From Colwellia sp. PAMC 20917 (GTDB taxonomy: Bacteria; Pseudomonadota; Gammaproteobacteria; Enterobacterales; Alteromonadaceae), in contig NZ_CP014944.1 in the NCBI RefSeq assembly GCF_001767295.1, positions 1,240,001 through 1,304,000 on the forward strand: a DNA stretch of 64,000 nt. Reading direction: 5' to 3'. A program made the position numbers and the translations under genes. Below are positions 5,618 to 19,315 of this stretch, piece after piece. Numbering within the stretch: position 1 is the first letter of the stretch; each line of letters starts with the position of its first letter. The notes under the pieces are model-generated. The model searched no databases. It was not told the DNA's origin and was given only the letters and a program-made list of their open reading frames with translations.

Positions 5618-5696
5618 AAAATTAGAATAAACTGTTTATATTGCTGATAAATGCGTAACTTATTAACATTATTAATTTACTTTGTTATTTATCCTT

Positions 5697-8504
5697 ATGC
5701 GTATTTCTTTAGCTCGTTTTCGACAATTAAGCCTAATCATTATCACCACGACATGTCTAAGCTCATGTCAGCATGATCAAAGTATACCAACAAGAACCCA
5801 GCTTACCGAAACGAGTGTAAAGTCAGCAGCGGTTTCCCCCTTAGTAAGCCAAGACTTTTCTGCACATTGGCTGACCCCAGAACTACTTTTATTACCTAAA
5901 GATAACTTACATCAACAACATACGTTAACATTTGATGACGGCGGAGATATTGAAAAAGCCAAACTTACGCCCTTCACAGGAGAAATAAATCGTCTGCTTA
6001 TCCCCAAACATTTACGTTCATTTAATGTATTTGAGGTAAAGCTGGCTACTAATAAGATTAAAAAAGCACTGAAAAATAAAATATATGTCAGCTCTGCAAG
6101 CAAGGGCACAAATTCAAAACACATAGCACAGGTGCAAACGGCTCAATTATTGGATGTTTTGTTTACCTCACAAAGTAACGACGCTAATGAGCTGAAAAAT
6201 TTTGGGGCAACTCTCAGTAAAGATTCGATTGAGTTTGCATTATGGGCACCGACCGCAAAACAGGTAACCTTATTAGCGTTTAATAAAGACAAGCAAGCGA
6301 CGCATGTTGTGCCACTTAAAGAAGATAGCAATACCGGTATTTGGTCTGGTGCTGTTATGAATACTCAACAAGAAGTCTACTACCAGTATCAACTGACAAT
6401 ATATCACCCGGCTAGCGATAAAATTGAAACATTAACCACTACAGATCCCTATTCCTTAAGCCTTTCAATAAACAGTGAATATTCACATGTTATCAATTTA
6501 GACGACTCAAAAAACAAACCTAATGGCTGGGAATTACAGCAAGATGTTTTAATTAAGAACCCTGAAGATAATATTTTTTATGAAACCCACATTCGTGATT
6601 TTAGTGCCCACGATCCGCAACTCTCATCACCTGCTGTTCGAGGAAAGTACGCCGCCTTCAGCGAAAAACATAGCGCTGGCATTAAACACTTTAAGGATCT
6701 ACAAAAAGCAGGTATTAACAATATTCATCTACTCCCCACCTTTGATATTGGTACCGCTAACGAAAATGACACACAAGTTATTGATCTAAATAATCCTATT
6801 AGCAAACTTTGCCAACTCGTGCCCGAACATAAGCTTTGTCGGCTCGAAGACCGAGCAATGACGATACAAGAATATTTAGAAACACTTCCCGCTGCAACAC
6901 ACGAGCGCCAAGCGATAGTCAGTTCTATTAGAGAAATTGATAATTACAATTGGGGCTACGACCCTTTCCATTATACTGTTCCAGAGGGCAGTTACGCACA
7001 AAACCCTGAAGGCTCAGCACGTATTATTGAATTTCGTCAAATGGTACAAAGTATTCATAATCTAGGCTTTCGCGTCATCATGGATGTCGTTTATAACCAT
7101 ACTCATCAAGCAGGGCTAGCGCCAACGGCTGTGCTTGATAAAATTGTCCCTAATTATTATCATCGTCTTGACCCTATCAGCGGAAAAATCGCACAATCAA
7201 CCTGTTGTGATAACACTGCCACAGAAAATGTCATGATGGAAAAGTTAATGACAGACTCATTAGTTGTTTGGGCAAGAGACTACAAAATTGACGGTTTTCG
7301 CTTCGACCTTATGGCACACCAACCCAAATCGGCGATGCTTAATGCCAAAAAAGCAGTACAAGCGGTTGATAAAGATACCTACTTTTATGGCGAAGGTTGG
7401 AATTTTGGTGAGGTGGCGAATAATCAGCGTTTTACGCAAGCCAGCCAATTAGCATTGGCTGGCACAGAAATCGGTACCTTTACCGACCGTTTACGCGATG
7501 CAGTTCGCGGTGGAGCCTTTAGCGCCAGTGGCGATGACATTCGTAAAAGCCAAGGTATCGGCAGTGGTTTAAGCACTATGCCTAATGAATTAGTGGATCG
7601 AGTAGTATCAAGAAAAGCTTATCTACTCGCCGCAGATCAATTACGTATTGGTTTAGCCGCTAATTTAGCCAACTTCCCTCTTAAAAATGCTCAAGATAAA
7701 AACGTTACCGGTAAAGAAATTCCTTATGGTGACCAACCAACCGGTTATGCATTAGACCCTGCCGATACCATTAACTATGTATCTAAACACGATAACCAAA
7801 CATTATGGGACAATAATCAATACCGCTTACCTTTTGATACCTCAACAAAAGATCGCGTACGTATTCACTTACAATCACTGTCCTTTGCTATATTCGCACA
7901 GGGCATTCCATTCTTACATATGGGATCAGAGTTTTTACGTTCAAAGTCATTTTTACGCGACAGTTACGACTATGGTGATTGGTTTAATAAAGTCGATTTT
8001 ACCAAGCAAAGCAATAATTATAATGTTGGTTTACCGCCAGCAGATAAGGACCAAGCAAACTGGCCACTGATTAAAAAAGTACTGGCAAAAAATGAAGGGC
8101 GAGATATTGTTGGCCCAACTGACATAGAGTTTAGTGCAGAAGTGTTTAAAGAGTTCATTAGTCTGCGCATGAGTACCCCCCTTTTTCGTCTTACCAACAG
8201 TGAACAAATAATAGAGCGTGTGAAATTTCACAATACCGGTAAAGCACAACAAATTGGCTTAATTGTGATGAGCATCGATGATGCCGAAAAATATCAGCAA
8301 GTAGATGCTGACATATCAGCGCTCGTTGTTATTTTTAATACCAGCACTACCGCTAAAACAATCCCTTTTAAAGAGGCAGCACAATATCAATTGCATCCTA
8401 TTCAACAACAGGGCGTTGATAGTGTTGTTAAAGAGAGTACCAGCAATGAAAACAGCTTTTTTGTTCCAGCACTAACCACCAGTGTTTTTATCAAAGAGCA
8501 ATAG
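5697..8504 (+). CDS. Second pullulanase-type GH13 enzyme, shorter lipoprotein paralogue
   Basis: A 935-residue debranching enzyme similar over its catalytic region to the preceding gene. Starting at the ATG at 5697 rather than the TTG at 5682 gives a compact lipoprotein signal ending LSSC. It keeps the N2-like region, CBM48 (near WAPTAKQV) and a full GH13 domain with Asp537 in DGFRFD, Glu566 in YGEGW and Asp699 in SKHDN, plus NWGYDP and DVVYNHT. It lacks the CBM41-like and cadherin-like domains and both C-terminal starch-binding-like modules. A cysteine pair in STCC near the catalytic core is shared by both paralogues (TCC). The smaller form may handle shorter periplasmic or surface oligosaccharides, while the larger one binds polymer; that division of labour is inference. 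Confidence 0.92.
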   Translation: MRISLARFRQLSLIIITTTCLSSCQHDQSIPTRTQLTETSVKSAAVSPLVSQDFSAHWLTPELLLLPKDNLHQQHTLTFDDGGDIEKAKLTPFTGEINRLLIPKHLRSFNVFEVKLATNKIKKALKNKIYVSSASKGTNSKHIAQVQTAQLLDVLFTSQSNDANELKNFGATLSKDSIEFALWAPTAKQVTLLAFNKDKQATHVVPLKEDSNTGIWSGAVMNTQQEVYYQYQLTIYHPASDKIETLTTTDPYSLSLSINSEYSHVINLDDSKNKPNGWELQQDVLIKNPEDNIFYETHIRDFSAHDPQLSSPAVRGKYAAFSEKHSAGIKHFKDLQKAGINNIHLLPTFDIGTANENDTQVIDLNNPISKLCQLVPEHKLCRLEDRAMTIQEYLETLPAATHERQAIVSSIREIDNYNWGYDPFHYTVPEGSYAQNPEGSARIIEFRQMVQSIHNLGFRVIMDVVYNHTHQAGLAPTAVLDKIVPNYYHRLDPISGKIAQSTCCDNTATENVMMEKLMTDSLVVWARDYKIDGFRFDLMAHQPKSAMLNAKKAVQAVDKDTYFYGEGWNFGEVANNQRFTQASQLALAGTEIGTFTDRLRDAVRGGAFSASGDDIRKSQGIGSGLSTMPNELVDRVVSRKAYLLAADQLRIGLAANLANFPLKNAQDKNVTGKEIPYGDQPTGYALDPADTINYVSKHDNQTLWDNNQYRLPFDTSTKDRVRIHLQSLSFAIFAQGIPFLHMGSEFLRSKSFLRDSYDYGDWFNKVDFTKQSNNYNVGLPPADKDQANWPLIKKVLAKNEGRDIVGPTDIEFSAEVFKEFISLRMSTPLFRLTNSEQIIERVKFHNTGKAQQIGLIVMSIDDAEKYQQVDADISALVVIFNTSTTAKTIPFKEAAQYQLHPIQQQGVDSVVKESTSNENSFFVPALTTSVFIKEQ

Positions 8505-11087: not shown

Positions 11088-11559
11088 TTGTAGAAGTTGA
11101 ATAACGTTGGAAACTGAAATTATTACGTTTAAGCACCGAATATACCTTTCAAAAAATTTAATCAAACGCTGAAATAGCTAACTTCTAAAATATAACTCTA
11201 AGGGCAGTAGTTGCCACAAAAGAGCTTTCCTAACACCCTCAATCATTACCAAAACTGTCTTATCTGATACGATAGAGGACATTAGCTTTGGCTTATCTAA
11301 CGACAAGTGATCCGACAAACCGGACATTAGTATCAATGTTTTTTTTAACTGTTTTAATATTCAGTAGACATCAACCTAGCGTCATCTTGATAGACAACAA
11401 AGCCATCACAGCGTTAGTTCATGGTTCAGCAGCTTAGTTCTTTGTGCGCTTAATTGAAGGTAATAGGCTTATTTTCTTAAAATCAGGATATTACTAAAAG
11501 CGGACATAAAATATTAGCAAATCGTCTTTGGTGAGCGGTAAGCTTAACGTATTTACTCC
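11088..11559. other. Intergenic region (472 bp)
   Basis: No gene recognised. The octamer GACATTAG occurs twice (near 11278 and 11322), and a related GCGGACATAAA lies near 11500, possibly remnants of short dispersed repeats. It sits between convergent genes. Confidence 0.3.
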
Positions 11560-12234
11560 CTAGAAAGTTAGGTTTGCTGGCCCTTTGACACTATAGTCAC
11601 TTTTTATGTCTACTCTTTTATTACTACCTAGAATATATTCGTAATAACCGACCAGTAGGTGAAAATTCAAACATAACACTTTCACTCTGAATTCTAATAC
11701 CCGATGATTTAGTGAAAATATTGTTAGATTTAAGTGACAATAAAATTTCTTGCTTTGGGGTATCTTGTAATAAATACTTGAGTGTTCTAGTGTGGATTTC
11801 CCAATCATCCCCACCTGTAATCCTTCCATCATCTTCTTTTTTAAATTACTTTGCTCTTCTGTTGTTTTTACGTAGCGGTTAGATTCCCAATATACTTGAC
11901 GTAATTTACTGAGAGGTTCAAGGTTGCGCTTAATTGAATCCATTTCTATTTGTGTTTTATTTGCAAGAAATATAGATAAAATATTGTAGATATCGTAAGA
12001 AAAATTAGTGATGGACATATACACATTATCATCACCGAGGGGAACATCTGGTCCTCTTTTGATAACAGCGGTTAAAGGTCTAGGTATATGAAGTTCACTA
12101 AAGGGTTTGTTTCCCTTTACAACATCTATTAGAGACAACAGACTTATAGGCCCAGCTACAAAACCAAAGGTGATTATTAAAAGTCCTAAAGCCAAGGAGA
12201 ACCAAAGTATAGTTTTGTTATAAATTAAGTCCAT
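11560..12234 (-). CDS. Hypothetical membrane-anchored protein with an apparent -1 frameshift
   Basis: The unshifted frame encodes 224 aa. An N-terminal hydrophobic helix (about residues 8-32) precedes a soluble domain. I do not recognise the family. At 11836-11842 (minus strand) the sequence is A_AAA_AAG in the zero-frame phase of a canonical -1 slippery heptamer. After it the unshifted translation becomes rich in Cys, Phe, Tyr and His and loses protein-like character. The -1 frame continues as a plausible hydrophilic domain containing GGDDWEIHTRTLKYLLQD and FEFSPTGRLLRIYSR and stops at 11624, giving about 203 aa. Either one A was lost from the A run (pseudogene or sequencing error), or the gene uses programmed frameshifting. 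Confidence 0.55.
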   Translation of the reverse strand: MDLIYNKTILWFSLALGLLIITFGFVAGPISLLSLIDVVKGNKPFSELHIPRPLTAVIKRGPDVPLGDDNVYMSITNFSYDIYNILSIFLANKTQIEMDSIKRNLEPLSKLRQVYWESNRYVKTTEEQSNLKKKMMEGLQVGMIGKSTLEHSSIYYKIPQSKKFYCHLNLTIFSLNHRVLEFRVKVLCLNFHLLVGYYEYILGSNKRVDIKSDYSVKGPANLTF

Positions 12235-12715
12235 TTTGATTCACTATTATAGTTGTATACCAGAATCATATCGTACTGCTTTTTGATTCTCAATCTGAAA
12301 TGTATACGAAAAAACTATCCAAAGCCTTTAATTGCTATTTATAGTCGACTGAGTCTCATTTCTTATAAGTATCAGATATAATGTCTTTTTTCGTATCTAA
12401 ACTGTCAATCAAGAGAGATGATCTCGGTTCACAAAAGCTGAGAACTAAGTGGTAAAAGTTAGCGTTTCAATATGACTTACCACAGACTACTTTGATACGA
12501 TCGTTCCCCACAGATAAAAATACGCATTGTTTGACTATAAATATTACCAATTAATCGAATAACCTGACTGGCAAAATGCCACCATTGCCGGCGTCACTAT
12601 GTTGCACTGGGATGACTGTATTTGTGCCGCGGCATTAAATAAAGATTAAAACGAGCGTTTGAATTTATGGATCAAGCTTGTTATAAGTAAACAACAAAAA
12701 ACTAATGATTTTTAT
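12235..12715. other. Intergenic region with a possible coding relic
   Basis: No intact gene. Around 12530-12700 on the + strand one frame reads protein-like segments such as WQNATIAGVTMLHWDDCICA interrupted by in-frame stops. This suggests the tail of a decayed gene that I cannot name. A GTGGTAA/TTACCAC inverted repeat lies at 12449-12483. Confidence 0.25.
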
Positions 12716-12907
12716 TATCCCCCATTAAGCCACCCATAATAACTTGTTTGTTTTTCATACAATAAACTATACTTAATTCACCCTCTTATAAGTGTGGTGA
12801 TTGTTATGCCTAAGCCTCGTTCACAACAAATCAGTTTATCTGATACGCCGTATTATCATATTTGCAGTCAAACCGTTCGCAAAGCTTTTTTATGTGGTGT
12901 TGATAAA
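12716..12907 (+). repeat. 192-bp tandem duplication, copy 1 (upstream region plus first 34 codons of the transposase)
   Basis: This segment is repeated immediately downstream at 12908-13099 with a period of exactly 192 bp and only about seven mismatches. It carries the transposase leader, its ATG (12806) and 34 codons. It then runs into copy 2, where translation stops at 12929-12931 after 41 residues. All coding differences between copies are synonymous (for example CCT/CCC, TGC/TGT, CGC/CGA). Confidence 0.9.
12720..12741 (-). repeat. REP-like element, upstream copy 1 (inverted)
   Basis: On the minus strand this reads TTATTATGGGTGGCTTAATG, matching the three + strand units downstream of the transposase (TTAT-C-ATGGGTGGC-A-TAG). 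A further copy lies at 12912-12933 in the duplicated unit. Opposite orientation on the two sides of the gene is the usual arrangement around RAYT genes. Confidence 0.6.
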
Positions 12908-12931
12908 TATCCCCCATTAAGCCACCCATAA
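12806..12931 (+). pseudogene. Truncated 5' fragment of the REP-associated transposase
   Basis: It encodes the same first 34 residues as the intact transposase (MPKPRSQQISLSDTPYYHIC onward), then a short out-of-family tail and a stop. It has neither the HxH motif nor the catalytic Tyr and cannot be active. It arose with the 192-bp tandem duplication. Confidence 0.8.
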
Positions 12932-13099
12932 TAACTTGTTTGTTTTTCATACAATAAACTACACTTAGTTTACCCTCTTATAAGTGTGGTGATTGTTATG
13001 CCCAAGCCTCGTTCACAACAAATCAGTTTATCTGATACGCCGTATTATCATATTTGTAGTCAAACCGTTCGAAAAGCCTTTTTATGTGGTGTTGATAAA
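12908..13099 (+). repeat. 192-bp tandem duplication, copy 2
   Basis: Second copy of the 192-bp unit. It supplies the upstream region and N-terminal coding part of the intact transposase gene; homology ends at codon 34, where the full gene continues. Confidence 0.9.
12912..12933 (-). repeat. REP-like element, upstream copy 2 (inverted)
   Basis: Same element as at 12720, carried by the second 192-bp unit, 65-86 bp before the transposase ATG. Confidence 0.6.
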
Positions 13100-13978
13100 G
13101 AAACCGGTGTCAGTTATGAGCACAGGCGTCATTGGATTGAACAGCGCATTTTTAAATTATCTCAAGTCTTTGCTATTGATATTTGTGCTCACGCTGTTAT
13201 GAATAATCACTTACATTTAGTCCTTCATGTTGATAGTGAACAAGTTAACCACTGGACGACGCTAGAGGTACTGTCTCGTTGGCATACGTTGTTTAAAGGC
13301 ACCCTGTTAACCCGTCAATATCAGCGACAGCAATCATTAACGACATTCGAAATAGAAATAGTTGAAGAAACAGCACAGGTCTATAAACAGCGCTTAATCG
13401 ATATCAGTTGGTTTATGCGGGCATTAAACGAGCCTATTGCTCGACAGGCCAATAAAGAAGATAAATGCACTGGGCACTTTTGGGAAGGACGCTTTAAATC
13501 ACAAGCCCTGCTCGATGAAGGGGCATTACTTGCTTGTATGGCTTATGTAGATTTAAACCCAGTGCGTGCGGGTATTGCCCCAACACCTGAGCAATCGAGT
13601 TTTACCAGTATTCAACTGCGTATCAGAGCCGCCATTATCGGAGAGCAACCGACAACGTTATTACCTTTTACTGGCCATGAACAGCAAGCTAAAACCTCCG
13701 GTATCCGCTTTAGCTTAAAGGACTATTTAACCCTTGTAGATGAAACAGGTCGCGTAATAAGAGCAGACAAACGAGGCGCTATCGATAACAAAACCGCAAA
13801 TATACTGTCAAGACTTCACATCAGCGATGAAAGTTGGCTCAAACTCACCTCAAACTTTGAAGGTATATTCACTGGCGCGGTCGGCACCGCAGAGCATTTG
13901 TGTGAATTTACTGAGCACGTGGGGTTAAAGCGAGCACACGGGAAAGCAAATGCCCAAGCTTGTTTAAATAGCGCGTAA
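12998..13978 (+). CDS. REP-associated tyrosine transposase (RAYT, Y1/HUH family)
   Basis: This is a 326-residue single-strand DNA transposase of the IS200/IS605-related Y1 family in its RAYT form. The start at 12998 (MPKPR) is preferred over the GTG at 12986 because it is the start conserved in the duplicated fragment. Hallmarks are the HUH motif H71-L-H73 in MNNHLHLV, the FWEGRFKSQALL segment, and the catalytic Tyr183 in AYVDLNPVRAG. RAYT proteins mobilise or maintain REP palindromes rather than moving as classical insertion sequences. Here ATGGGTGGC-containing repeats flank the gene, inverted upstream and direct downstream, and are probably its substrate. The gene looks intact. The C-terminal extension (about 225-326) is typical of longer RAYTs in marine gammaproteobacteria. 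Confidence 0.88.
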   Translation: MPKPRSQQISLSDTPYYHICSQTVRKAFLCGVDKETGVSYEHRRHWIEQRIFKLSQVFAIDICAHAVMNNHLHLVLHVDSEQVNHWTTLEVLSRWHTLFKGTLLTRQYQRQQSLTTFEIEIVEETAQVYKQRLIDISWFMRALNEPIARQANKEDKCTGHFWEGRFKSQALLDEGALLACMAYVDLNPVRAGIAPTPEQSSFTSIQLRIRAAIIGEQPTTLLPFTGHEQQAKTSGIRFSLKDYLTLVDETGRVIRADKRGAIDNKTANILSRLHISDESWLKLTSNFEGIFTGAVGTAEHLCEFTEHVGLKRAHGKANAQACLNSA

Positions 13979-14186
13979 ACTTAACTACATGCAAAAACCG
14001 CACTAAGACAGCACTAAGACAGCAAGAAAAATACGGCTACCTTGGGGGAGAAGTAAAGCTTGCCTGAAATTCACTCATTTAATCAACATCTATAAAAATC
14101 GATAGGCAAAGGCTTACAAGATGAAGTTCATGCCTTGTTGTTGACCAATCGGTAGCTGTGTTTCAGAGCATTATTACTGTGGAGCA

Positions 14187-14279
14187 TTATCATGGGTGGC
14201 ATAGTAATTTTTTATCATGGGTGGCATAGTAATTTATTTTTATCACAGCGGAGAATTATCATGGGTGGCATAGTAATTT
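14187..14279 (+). repeat. Three direct REP-like repeats downstream of the transposase
   Basis: The 24-bp unit TTATCATGGGTGGCATAGTA plus ATTT occurs exactly at 14187-14210, 14212-14235 and 14256-14279. Copies 1 and 3 share further upstream identity (GGAG-x-ATTATCATGG). The core ATGGGTGGC recurs inverted upstream of the transposase. The cluster fills most of the 315-bp gap before the end of the AraC gene. A short GCACTAAGACA tandem repeat lies near 14000-14025. Confidence 0.85.
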
Positions 14280-14293
14280 TTTAGACCTAAATA

Positions 14294-15211
14294 TTATCTT
14301 TCCTCATCATTTTCAATGACATTATGTTGAAAAGTATTTTTCTGTTCTTTACGCCAGCGACCGGGGCTTAAACCATAGTCTTTTTTAAAACGGTGAGCAA
14401 AGCTTGCACTATCGCCATAGCCTACGGTGTCAGCTATTTGATCAAGATTATATTGTGTATAACGAAGTAAGTAGCAAGCGTATTCTAGGCGAGTGTGAGT
14501 TAATAGTTTGATTGGTGTCATCCCCATTTCTTTCTTACATAAACGAAAGAAGTGCGGCTCAGACATATGCATTTCTGCAGCTAATTGCTTAACAGTCCAC
14601 GGCAGTTGCAATTGCTTATTTACACGACGTATTAGAGAGTGAAATTTTTGTTGTTGCTTTGTTAGTTGCTGCCCCATGTTCAGTGTTTGCGCAATTTGAT
14701 AAATTAAAACTTCGACTAAGCGCAATACAATATCTGATTGATACATACTCTCACCGTGTTTGAATTCTCTAATAAGTGACATCGTTTGATAAAGTTTCTC
14801 TGCATTCGCACTGGAATAAACGGAAGGTTGAAGTTGATGAACAAACTTATATTCAGAACAGTCATGCAGTAATAGCCAACACATATCCCAATATTTCCCC
14901 GAAAGTTCATACAAAAAAGGGGTTCCTGCTGGCAGTAAAAGCACACTGCCGGGTTTAACTAAATATTCGTTGTTACCAAACTTGATCTTTCCCTCTCCTG
15001 CATGAGTAGAAATTAAGTAATGAACATGCCTATTGCTGTTTTCATTACCTAAACAAACTTCTCCTTTACCTGTTTTGCCTATTTGATATTCAGTTTGTAA
15101 ATACGACAACCCCGCAAAGGCTATGAAACTATCAGCTTGCCCTGGTAATTTATCAAAATTAATAAAATCCTCAATACAATCAGGATGAATATTTAAAATA
15201 TCTTGCCACAC
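14294..15211 (-). CDS. AraC-family transcriptional regulator
   Basis: A 305-residue activator. Residues about 20-150 form a cupin-like sensor domain with the HYLISTHAGEG and VLLLPAGTPFLYE segments. Residues about 195-295 form the double helix-turn-helix, with MHMSEPHFFRLCKKEMG and the second-helix signature ADTVGYGDSASFAHRFKKDY before the conserved LSPGRWR. The gene diverges from a MATE exporter gene with about 117 bp between starts, so it may control that exporter. The cupin sensor is of the type that often binds sugars, which also makes a carbohydrate signal possible. The effector is unknown. Confidence 0.88.
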   Translation of the reverse strand: MWQDILNIHPDCIEDFINFDKLPGQADSFIAFAGLSYLQTEYQIGKTGKGEVCLGNENSNRHVHYLISTHAGEGKIKFGNNEYLVKPGSVLLLPAGTPFLYELSGKYWDMCWLLLHDCSEYKFVHQLQPSVYSSANAEKLYQTMSLIREFKHGESMYQSDIVLRLVEVLIYQIAQTLNMGQQLTKQQQKFHSLIRRVNKQLQLPWTVKQLAAEMHMSEPHFFRLCKKEMGMTPIKLLTHTRLEYACYLLRYTQYNLDQIADTVGYGDSASFAHRFKKDYGLSPGRWRKEQKNTFQHNVIENDEER

Positions 15212-15328
15212 AGGATTACCAAAATGATAGTTTTAAACATGATACATGACAATTTCACTTATGTTTTTTTTATCACTATATTTTATAATTCTATGCAATA
15301 TTATAGTAACCTCTAATGACTAAAACCA

Positions 15329-16693
15329 ATGCGTAACATCGAACCTTCATCATTAAAGCAAAGTATTAAATTAGCTTGGCCTATCTCTTTACAAAGCATA
15401 TTGGTCACCATGCTAGGCATGAGTGACATAATGATGGTTGGGCATTTAGGCGATACGGCCATTGCTTCTGTTGGGCTGGGTAACCGAATTCAATTTGTTT
15501 TTTTAATCATTTTAGCGGGACTCGCCTCAGGTGTTGGTACTTTATCTGCGCAACACTTTGGCGCAGGTCAAATTGGTGTGATTAGACAAGTCATTGTTAA
15601 AACACTTGTTATTGCAGCAGGTATTTTACTGCCTATATTACTCATTACTTTCTTGTTTTCTGACAATATCATGGGTATTGCCACAACAGATCCCAGCGTT
15701 ATAAAAGCAGGAACAAGCTACCTTTGGCTGACCATGCCTAGCTTAATTTTTGTTGTCATTGTGATGATATTTGAAAACGCTTTAAGGGGTCTTGGGCAAG
15801 TAGTCTTCCCCATGTTAATTAGTACCCTAGCTATTATTACCAATATTCTTTTAAACTATTGGTTAATCAAAGGTGGCTTAGGAATAGAGCCAATGGGTGT
15901 TATTGGCGCTGCGCTAGCAACACTAATTGCGCGAGCACTTCATGCTTTATTAATACTGGTCTACTTAGCAAAGGTTAAGCACAGTATTTTTCCAACAACG
16001 TTCTTTTGTGCTAGTTTTTATAACAAACAAGAGTGGACTAAGTTACTCACCTTAGTTTGGCCTATGATGCTAAGTTTTGGCGTGTGGTCATTAGGCACTT
16101 TTGTGTATCAACTGATATATGGACGTATTGGAACACAAGAACTTGCTGTAATGAGTCTATTAGCGCCAATGGAAGGATTATTGGTTTCATTCTTTTTTGG
16201 TTTTGCTTCTGCTTGCGCTATTTTAGTTGGGCAGCGCTTAGGTAGAAACGAATTTATAACGGCATGGGCTTTAGCAAAAAATCACGCCATTAGTGCGCCA
16301 ATTGTTACCTTTTTATTAGCCTTAATTTTACTTCAATGTGAGTCTTTAGTCTTTCTGCCTTATACCAATTTGTCTTCAGAAACGATGGCATTGTCCCATG
16401 ATGTTTTTGTATTGATCACCTTTGGCACTTGCTTGAAAGTATTTAACTTAACTATGTCTATGGGGATATTACGCGCAGGTGGTGATAACAAATATTGCAT
16501 GTTAATTGATATATCAGGCATGTGGGTTTTAAGCATTCCATTAACTTTGGCGGCGGCATTTTACTTTAAGTTACCACTATATTGGGTAGTTCTCATCTCT
16601 TACTCTGAAGAAATAACTAAAGCATTTATGTTTGTTTTTAGAATGAGAACGAAGCTTTGGTTAAAAAATCTAACGGCTGAAAGTGTTACCTAG
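15329..16693 (+). CDS. MATE-family multidrug/metabolite efflux transporter
   Basis: A 454-residue inner-membrane antiporter (NorM/DinF-type MatE domains twice, about residues 15-175 and 240-400) with about twelve membrane helices. The family exports organic cations or drugs in exchange for Na+ or H+. Diagnostic features are the N-terminal AWPISLQ, the MVGHLG loop and FENALRGLGQ after helix 4, with the partner loop MGILRAGGDNKY in the second half. No ribosome-binding site is obvious at the ATG. It diverges from the AraC-family gene, suggesting local control. The substrate is not predictable. Confidence 0.88.
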   Translation: MRNIEPSSLKQSIKLAWPISLQSILVTMLGMSDIMMVGHLGDTAIASVGLGNRIQFVFLIILAGLASGVGTLSAQHFGAGQIGVIRQVIVKTLVIAAGILLPILLITFLFSDNIMGIATTDPSVIKAGTSYLWLTMPSLIFVVIVMIFENALRGLGQVVFPMLISTLAIITNILLNYWLIKGGLGIEPMGVIGAALATLIARALHALLILVYLAKVKHSIFPTTFFCASFYNKQEWTKLLTLVWPMMLSFGVWSLGTFVYQLIYGRIGTQELAVMSLLAPMEGLLVSFFFGFASACAILVGQRLGRNEFITAWALAKNHAISAPIVTFLLALILLQCESLVFLPYTNLSSETMALSHDVFVLITFGTCLKVFNLTMSMGILRAGGDNKYCMLIDISGMWVLSIPLTLAAAFYFKLPLYWVVLISYSEEITKAFMFVFRMRTKLWLKNLTAESVT

Positions 16694-17281
16694 TTGAACG
16701 AATTCGATTAAGTTGCACACAACTAAAACTTGAGTAACCAATGTATATTTCTAAGTTGTGATCAAACCATAAAGTCGTAAAATCGACATTGCCGTTATTT
16801 ACCTTTTCTAAAATTCAGATGAAGTAGATTATTGGTTCTATGGCGAAAACGCACCCTATAGCCATAGAATTAAAATTTAGCTCAGCTTTAAGATCTGAAC
16901 GTTAACGTTTGATATTTTGATTGGTCTTATTCCGCTTAGCGCACGCAAAAGACGTTAAAACCATCATTTAATAATGTGTTTCGAATGATTATTAAAGTTC
17001 ATTTATGCCAGAAGTCAGGTTCCAACTTTATTTGGAGTGTTTCTGGTACTTTTTTAATAAATAAAACTTACTGCCACATTTGTTTCTATCTTTATTCACA
17101 AAAGCCCATTTTTGCTCAACGATATAAGTCGGCTTGCTTGGAGTTTTTGTTTCAATATTTATTTGGCTTTTACACTAATGATTTATTAATTAACGATAAA
17201 CTTATGAATACGTATGTAGCTTAGCTGTAAATTGGTGTCAGTCCTTTATGCTTGAGGTAATAAAAAACATCAGGAATATCC
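16694..17281. other. Intergenic region (588 bp) with hairpin and GH97 promoter region
   Basis: A TTCTATGGC/GCCATAGAA inverted repeat (16836-16844 and 16861-16869) lies after the MATE gene; it lacks a T tract. An 82-codon frame at 16976-17224 overlaps the operator, has no ribosome-binding site or protein-like composition, and is not called. The operator at 17205 and the GH97 promoter occupy the last part. Confidence 0.5.
17205..17218 (+). promoter_or_regulatory. Putative MalR-type operator upstream of the GH97 gene
   Basis: Third exact TGAATACGTATGTA, ending 63 bp before the GH97 ATG and in the same orientation as the two pullulanase copies nearly 12 kb away. Its presence at three alpha-glucan genes and no unrelated gene supports a shared regulator. 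Confidence 0.75.
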
Positions 17282-19315
17282 ATGAAAAAAATTATACTCA
17301 GCCTTGCTGTACTGATTTCATCTCACAGTTTATTTGCACAAACCCTTAAGTTAACGTCACCCGACGGAAAAATAATTCTCAGTGTTAATGACCATGGAAA
17401 ACCTAATTACGAAATGAGCTTTTTAGGTAAAAGCATTATACACCCCTCCCGCTTAGGCTTAGCATTCAAAGATACTATCGCTTTTAGTGACGGGTTTACT
17501 ATTTCATCGAATGAAACCCAATCAGCCAAAGAAGTATGGCAATTACCTTGGGGTGAACGTAAAAATGTGACTGATGAACACAATGAATTGTTGGTGACTT
17601 TTTCAAGAAATAATAAAAAAAACACTAAAGAATTTAAGGTACGTTTTCGTTTGTTTAATGACGGCATTGGTTTTCGTTACGAAGTGCCAAAACAACAAGA
17701 TATTGATCACGTGGAAATCATTAATGAATTCACCGAATTTGTTGTAAACGACGCGGATAAAGCGACCGCATGGTGGATTCCAGCACGTGGCTGGAATCGT
17801 TATGAATACATTTATAATACTACCAAGCTAGCCTCGGTTGATCGCGCTCATACACCTTTTACTTTTAAACTAGACTCGGGCATTCACCTTAGTATTCATG
17901 AAGCGGCATTAGTTGATTATGCTGCCATGACGATTAACCAAAAGCGTCCTGGTGTCTTAAAAGCCGATTTAACACCTTGGTCAGACGGCATCTTAGTTAA
18001 AACAAAAACCAATTTCAAAAGTCCATGGCGTACTATTCAAGTCAGTAAAAATGCGGTTGGCTTACTCAATTCTGACCTGATATTAAACCTTAATGAACCG
18101 AATAAATTAGGTGATGTATCTTGGGTTGAACCGGCTAAATATTTGGGGATTTGGTGGGGAATGCACATTAATGCCAACACCTGGGGCAGTGGCGACAAAC
18201 ACGGTGCAACCACCAGTGAAACCATGAGTTATATCGACTTTGCCGCTGAGCATGGTTTTTCTGGGGTTTTGGTTGAAGGCTGGAACCTAGGCTGGGATGG
18301 CGACTGGTTTTTCAACGGCGACGTGTTTAATTTCACTAAAGCTTATGATGATTTTGATATTGCTGCCGTATCAGCTTACGGTGAAAAGAAAGGGGTTCGA
18401 TTAATTGGCCACCATGAAACCTCAGGTAATGTGACTAATTACCGTAATCAAATGAGTGATGCTTATACACTTTATGAAAAGTATGGCGTAAGACAAGTGA
18501 AAACAGGTTATGTTGCTGACGGTGGCGATATTAAACGCATTGATGAAAAAGGCATAGTTCACAAAGAATGGCATGACGGTCAGTTCATGGTAAGTGAGTA
18601 TTTACACAGTATTACTGAAGCAGCGAAACATAAAATTAGTATTAACACCCATGAACCGATTAAAGATACCGGTTTACGCAGAACCTACCCCAACTGGATT
18701 TCAAGAGAAGGTGCTCGCGGCCAAGAATTTAATGCTTGGGGCACACCACCAAACCCACCTGAGCATACCACCATTTTACCCTTTACTCGCATGTTAGCTG
18801 GACCAATGGATTTTACACCAGGCATCTTCGATATGAGTTTTAATGGTTTGGGTGATAAAAGCAATCGCCCACAAACTACGCTAGCAAAACAATTAGCATT
18901 ATACGTGGTGCTTTATAGCCCTATTCAAATGGCGGCTGATTTACCTAAAAACTATCAAGCAAATTTAGCCGCATTTCAATTTATTAAAGATGTACCAACC
19001 GATTGGCATGAGAGTATAGCGATTGCTGGTGAGGTCGGTGAATATGTTGCTTTTGCTCGTCAAGAAAGGGGGGGTGATGATTGGTTTGTTGGCGCATTAA
19101 CCGATGAGAAAACACGCACGTTAACATTGCCGTTAAATTTTCTTGATAAGAATAAGCGCTATCAAGCACAAATTTATCGCGATGGTAAAAACGCAGAGTG
19201 GATTAACAATCCCTATGAAATGATCATTGAAAACAGGCAAGTCACCGCTAACGACCAATTAGTATTACCCTTGGCGACAAGTGGCGGTGCTGCGATTCGT
19301 TTCAAAGCATTATAA
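17282..19315 (+). CDS. susB: GH97 alpha-glucosidase (SusB-like), exported
   Basis: A 677-residue enzyme that should release glucose from maltooligosaccharides produced by the pullulanases. A clear signal peptide (about residues 1-19, SHSLFA) is followed by an N-terminal beta-sandwich (about 22-285), a TIM-like barrel (about 290-570) and a C-terminal beta domain. The catalytic pattern fits the inverting SusB subgroup: Glu379 in HHET, Glu458 in THEP, and Glu476 and Glu482 in REGARGQE. The 18- and 6-residue spacings of the last three agree with the SusB calcium/acid glutamates as I recall them. GH97 is commonest in Bacteroidetes but known in marine gammaproteobacteria. A strong terminator follows. 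Confidence 0.92.
   Translation: MKKIILSLAVLISSHSLFAQTLKLTSPDGKIILSVNDHGKPNYEMSFLGKSIIHPSRLGLAFKDTIAFSDGFTISSNETQSAKEVWQLPWGERKNVTDEHNELLVTFSRNNKKNTKEFKVRFRLFNDGIGFRYEVPKQQDIDHVEIINEFTEFVVNDADKATAWWIPARGWNRYEYIYNTTKLASVDRAHTPFTFKLDSGIHLSIHEAALVDYAAMTINQKRPGVLKADLTPWSDGILVKTKTNFKSPWRTIQVSKNAVGLLNSDLILNLNEPNKLGDVSWVEPAKYLGIWWGMHINANTWGSGDKHGATTSETMSYIDFAAEHGFSGVLVEGWNLGWDGDWFFNGDVFNFTKAYDDFDIAAVSAYGEKKGVRLIGHHETSGNVTNYRNQMSDAYTLYEKYGVRQVKTGYVADGGDIKRIDEKGIVHKEWHDGQFMVSEYLHSITEAAKHKISINTHEPIKDTGLRRTYPNWISREGARGQEFNAWGTPPNPPEHTTILPFTRMLAGPMDFTPGIFDMSFNGLGDKSNRPQTTLAKQLALYVVLYSPIQMAADLPKNYQANLAAFQFIKDVPTDWHESIAIAGEVGEYVAFARQERGGDDWFVGALTDEKTRTLTLPLNFLDKNKRYQAQIYRDGKNAEWINNPYEMIIENRQVTANDQLVLPLATSGGAAIRFKAL

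Follow-up and report, generated by a model that had tools for sequence, protein, structure and literature searches.

In Colwellia sp. PAMC 20917, a small membrane-protein gene has probably been broken by a real and recent mutation, the loss of a single base from an A-run of this accessory gene. The gene is located on the minus strand of the analyzed window, i.e., the whole DNA stretch of 64,000 nucleotides, where its unshifted reading forms an ORF of 224 aa (12234-11560). Since most ribosomes would read into a meaningless tail, the gene has probably lost its function altogether or in large part. A recent one-base loss is the most likely explanation and is followed in rank by a sequencing error; ribosomal slippage may allow an incidental, leaky rescue of the broken gene, and programmed frameshifting as a dedicated mechanism is unlikely.

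Reading Frames and Slippery Heptamer of the Gene

The 5′ part of the gene (codons 1-133; 12234-11836, minus strand) is read in the 0 frame and encodes an N-terminal hydrophobic segment and the domain after it. At its end lies the heptamer AAAAAAG (11842-11836, minus strand), whose first A occupies codon position 3 (codons TTA AAA AAG); place and phase of this A_AAA_AAG motif for a -1 shift are as given in the initial annotation. Here, after codon 133, homology passes from the 0 frame to the -1 frame. The 3′ part in the -1 frame (11836-11624, minus strand) consists of 70 codons and a TAG stop codon (11626-11624). The frame had been called coherent, with 70 residues and its end at 11624, and this was confirmed, since it is open up to this stop and its translation matches a homologue (see below). 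Immediately upstream of the run, the -1 frame is shut by a TAA codon (11848-11846, minus strand), and therefore the crossover can occur only at the run or past it.

The unshifted tail in the 0 frame (11835-11560, minus strand) comprises 91 residues, including two Cys, five Phe, and seven Tyr. Its earlier description as aromatic and Cys-rich is thus appropriate for the aromatic residues and not for Cys. Phased A_AAA_AAG heptamers are not rare in the window, as three of them, including that of the present gene, were counted in the 46 ORFs of at least 150 aa. An independent downstream gene or translational coupling was not favored, because the -1 frame is open no earlier than 11845 and the 0 frame ends at 11560; in the ORF list of the window, the -1 frame contains no ORF of at least 50 aa with an ATG, GTG, or TTG start.

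Homologues in Other Genera and the C-Terminus

The product of codons 1-133 and the -1 tail were searched separately in 147 related genomes. Each of them gave matches in two genomes, the own genome and G052, where the matches of the N-terminal part (E 2.1e-32) and of the -1 tail (E 1.8e-17) are both located within one open frame coding for a protein of 203 aa (locus L003). The shifted product has the same length and could be aligned with the L003 protein without gaps over all 203 residues (50% identity). The alignment of the unshifted protein with L003 ended at residue 133, with 47% identity over these 133 residues.

A two-sequence profile (E 0.01) gave matches in four of 395 family genomes, the own genome among them, and the homologues of G1046 (E 5.0e-17) and G875 (E 9.4e-9) were scored in this way before their inclusion in the profile. 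With the resulting four-sequence profile (E 0.001), seven of the 395 genomes matched including the own one; three of the six matches in the 394 other genomes were full length, and their E-values in this search are inflated because these homologues are rows of the profile. The full-length homologues, all from other genera, have 203 (G052), 202 (G1046), and 197 aa (G875), and each of the three crosses the site in a single frame. The homologue of G1114 was set aside because its tail is cut by the contig end and the site is not reached. The weak partial matches in G986 and G1062 (46 N-terminal positions; 228-aa ORF), the latter perhaps a distant relative, were kept outside the homologue count.

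The initial annotation had proposed a comparison of both translations with homologues. With a profile derived from the three homologues alone, the shifted product reached 157.5 bits, compared to 97.2 bits for the unshifted protein, 96.8 bits for the N-terminal part, and 48.7 bits for the -1 tail by itself. For the unshifted tail alone nothing was reported by this profile, and the suggested possibility that homologues might match the tail of the 224-aa reading was not borne out in any of the three. The L003 frame equivalent to the unshifted tail is closed by a stop after four codons. Taken together with the missing homologue match, this indicates that the unshifted tail is a fortuitous reading. 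The -1 tail and the three homologues have a common C-terminal pattern consisting of F, three residues, G, seven residues, and a final R. The supposed real C-terminal domain in the -1 frame was borne out by the tail search, the gap-free alignment over 203 residues, and the profile scores. These comparisons strongly support the -1 tail as the true, ancestral C-terminus, and it is coding beyond chance.

The distribution of the gene is sporadic, in relatives of Colwellia. In the search with the four-sequence profile, none of five congeners had the gene. A draw at the level of the order gave a match in one of 394 genomes, the own one, and a draw at the level of the class matches in two of 369, the own genome and a marginal one in G502 (E 7.5e-4), which was taken as a chance match from a look at its ORF by eye. 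In draws from the genera of the homologues, matches were obtained in the single genome of the G052 genus, in three of 39 genomes of the G1046 genus (one full length), and in one of five genomes of the G875 genus. Among named genomes, only one locus was found, on the Colwellia MAG contig JALJPB010000077.1, and its protein is identical to the G052 homologue. Genus g38 includes two genomes in which a membrane protein of 186 aa, similar in appearance, comes after the homologue (L011 2302-2862 and L014 412-972); its L011 copy has no match in Pfam.

The A-Run in Relatives and Constraint on Both Gene Parts

A frame break common to the present gene and any of the three full-length homologues was not found. 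L003 has eight A residues at the site, which start at codon position 1 and keep the frame, L011 has no A-run at the aligned place, and L012 has seven A residues about ten residues ahead of the aligned place, with the frame unbroken. A comparison of run lengths had been suggested in the initial annotation, with seven A residues and a continuous frame in relatives as the pattern speaking for a mutation or a sequencing error. The continuous frame was found in all three full-length homologues, but not seven A residues at the same place; the nearest homologue, which is only 50% identical, has eight.

The coding strands of the 45 other ORFs of at least 150 aa in the window contain 18 runs of seven A residues, and in one of these 18 a one-base loss would create a phased A_AAA_AAN motif. 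Such a loss gives a phased heptamer only in runs whose first A is at codon position 3. As only one of the 18 runs is suitably placed, it is not automatic that a lesion makes its own rescue site, and the phase of the present lesion is a mild coincidence, one in three by phase alone, which is a slight argument for slippage.

The pN/pS ratio was 0.515 for the C-terminal part compared to 0.538 for the N-terminal part, and dS against L003 was above 1.2. The C-terminal part appears to be without decay. Since dS exceeds 1.2 and the history recorded is mostly older than the lesion, the equal constraint is as compatible with a recent lesion as with an error or a rescue, and, given the long branch that the gene has in common with L003, it cannot date the lesion.

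Search for Stimulators of Frameshifting

The best fold of the 50 nt downstream of the heptamer had a free energy of -8.3 kcal/mol (z -1.49; 17 of 200 shuffles were as good) and starts past 20 unpaired nt. For the downstream stretches of 70 and 100 nt, z was 0.11 and -0.23, and no fold was obtained for a stretch of 36 nt in these computations of pseudoknot-free folds. A GGATT/AATCC pairing had been noted before at a distance of 11-35 nt downstream. Both elements are present (11823-11819 and 11798-11794), but their first bases lie 13 and 38 nt beyond the heptamer, and their pairing is absent from the predicted fold; in the best 50-nt fold, AUCC pairs with another GGAU and the GGATT at 11823-11819 lies outside. 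No Shine-Dalgarno-like duplex better than -3 kcal/mol was found in the 25 nt upstream of the heptamer, and the same holds true for the 30 nt before the ATG of the gene, where the best duplex (-2.8 kcal/mol) begins 27-30 nt upstream. These duplexes were computed against the anti-Shine-Dalgarno sequence. Expression of the gene from its own start is therefore putative. A convincing stimulator for -1 frameshifting was not found.

Heptamer and phase are like those of dnaX of E. coli and of IS elements, for which -1 frameshifting at A_AAA_AAG is described (dnaX motif according to PMC3711429). The present gene differs from these systems by the lack of a Shine-Dalgarno-like element and of a well-placed strong hairpin and by a site that is not conserved in homologues. 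Furthermore, the shift in dnaX leads to a shorter product according to PMC3711429, whereas here it restores the homologous protein.

Genomic Neighborhood and Protein Family

The gene is part of a block of about 6.1 kb (11090-17173) that also contains a transposase-like gene, a gene for an AraC-type regulator, and one for a MATE transporter (Pfam), and that is absent from the congeners G003 and G001; of the five congeners, these two have a match to the UbiA-family gene at its flank. The alignment with G003 reaches 11089 and restarts at 17174, the ends overlapping in G003, and that with G001 reaches 11087 and restarts at 17185, the ends being nine bases apart in G001. The block lies between the UbiA-family gene and a gene at 17282, which in G003 are about 100 bp apart. 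Because it is missing from both congeners, the block is regarded as accessory and the gene as dispensable there. Loss of the frame is to be expected in a dispensable gene located in a block of this kind.

In the region 12714-13979, the transposase-like gene (12986-13978) showed a sub-threshold match to Y1_Tnp (17 vs. 23 bits; Pfam). It belongs to a multi-copy element for which 18 matches were obtained in the own genome; identity is 95-100% for the top eight. The left end of the element (192 bp, with the gene start) occurs here as two tandem copies (12716-12907 and 12908-13099, 96% identical); in four other stretches checked, with five full copies, both tandem halves match a single left end per copy. 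On the contig with the closest homologue (G052:C174; L028, L003), a copy of the transposase-like gene with 79% identity is located about 5 kb upstream, and therefore the two genes may travel together. Beside the UbiA-family gene of G001, the homologue of the 17282 gene (L019 2519-2900) consists of short overlapping ORFs and appears broken or truncated.

Searches in Pfam, NCBIfam, PHROGs, and PDB sequences yielded only weak, mutually inconsistent matches, none of them above the cut-off (lowest E 0.012, PARP_regulatory for L011). The protein represents a rare, small, and uncharacterized family of membrane proteins. The L003 homologue had a weak profile match to ExbD/TolR (PF02472; E 0.042), with which it shares the N-terminal hydrophobic segment. 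Its score of 14.3 bits is below the gathering score of 25.4 and the match concerns one member only; neither the window protein, unshifted or read-through, nor L011 or L012 had an ExbD match in Pfam. An AlphaFold2 model of the homologue calculated from three sequences had a mean pLDDT of 50.6, too poor for a fold search. The idea of a mobile gene on a phage or plasmid received no support: tblastn with the G052 homologue (E 0.01) gave no match in collections of phages (50,697 records) and plasmids (72,556 records), and none of 55 pattern candidates from viral contigs encodes a relative.

Origin of the Frame Break

The ancestral gene would have encoded an accessory protein of about 203 residues with one N-terminal hydrophobic segment. 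We infer that replication slippage removed one base from the short A-run two-thirds along the gene, as a real mutation in the strain with decay yet to follow. Most ribosomes would then continue into the meaningless 91-residue tail. As a by-product of the position of the loss, the phased A_AAA_AAG motif would have arisen, at which a small fraction of the ribosomes could regain the frame. The comparisons show directly that the two gene halves are homologous to single-frame proteins and that the change of frame occurs at the run. A feature that speaks against a plain mutation is the exact coincidence of the lesion with a -1 motif that is among those most prone to shifts.

In the GeneTack survey, singleton frame transitions validated by homologues are ascribed to sequencing errors or indels (PMC3711429). 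The present gene resembles these singletons, which represent indel pseudogenes or sequencing errors (PMC3711429), in having one break, single-frame homologues in other genera, and no conserved site among homologues. It is unlike them in that the break coincides with a phased A_AAA_AAG and that the family has no above-cut-off match in Pfam or NCBIfam.

The foremost competitor, if an unlikely one, is an error in sequencing or assembly, in which case the gene of the strain would be intact and one homopolymer A would have been dropped. A homopolymer site, intact homologues (three of three), and a C-terminal part without decay fit this explanation, and for homologue-validated singletons PMC3711429 expects sequencing errors rather than genuine indels. 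Against it stand the shortness of the run, which has only six A residues, and the 62 runs of at least six A on the coding strands of the remaining 45 window ORFs with 150 aa or more. Moreover, a comparison of 11 neighboring ORFs with G003 (12,438 aligned columns; two ORFs partly aligned, from base 151 and from base 80) revealed no net frame-breaking gap. Gaps occurred only in the ORF 5682-8504, where they cancel out, and the other ten ORFs were gap-free. As these clean neighbors do not indicate an indel-ridden assembly, we ranked a real mutation ahead of an error. The genome assembly itself (G000) is a single contig of 4.68 Mb, rated 100% complete with 0.6% contamination; such ratings do not measure indels.

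A real base loss might also be compensated by incidental -1 slippage at A_AAA_AAG, yielding enough of the 203-aa protein to hold the tail under selection, which we consider doubtful. The heptamer is in phase, the constraint on the C-terminal part equals that on the N-terminal part, and in E. coli, A_AA.A_AA.G together with stimulators is one of the three -1 motifs with the highest efficiency (PMC4066793). Without stimulators, however, the three best motifs gave a shift of about 0.3% in E. coli according to the same source, which also cites another study in which context raised the shift up to about 12-fold. A frameshift mutation in rpoB of E. coli is reported to be intrinsically suppressed, at a different motif and by a shift in the opposite direction (PMC7022156). 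Further points against such a rescue are that no stimulator was found and that the similar constraint on both parts largely records earlier evolution along the branch common to this gene and L003 (dS above 1.2). An even more tentative idea is that the frame-broken accessory gene is still in service, its loss having made its own A_AAA_AAG, with a low and possibly tunable output of the 203-aa protein by slippage. It would then be a newly formed transitional stage from mutation to programmed frameshifting.

Dedicated programmed -1 frameshifting with use of both the 203-aa and the 224-aa product is highly improbable. The phased heptamer and the coherent -1 frame agree with it, and the initial annotation had considered it to fit as well as a simple loss of one A. 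This equivalence does not hold, as the three full-length homologues are unshifted and continuous, the tail of the 224-aa reading matches none of them, its frame being closed in the nearest one, and no convincing stimulator was found. In addition, conservation of the site cannot be shown, since the gene is present in none of the five congeners. Because of the continuous homologues and the lack of a convincing stimulator, programmed frameshifting was rejected and is largely refuted as a conserved system. Transcriptional slippage is unlikely at six A residues; the run length selected against in a large share of bacterial genomes is nine (PMC1088944).

The main consequence is a corrected annotation: the -1 frame contains the true C-terminus of the protein, and the 224-aa reading is unfit for use. 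A little full-length protein may still be made through low-level -1 slippage. Should slippage rescue the gene, the case would illustrate in nature, and at an early stage, how a recoding site can grow out of a lesion.
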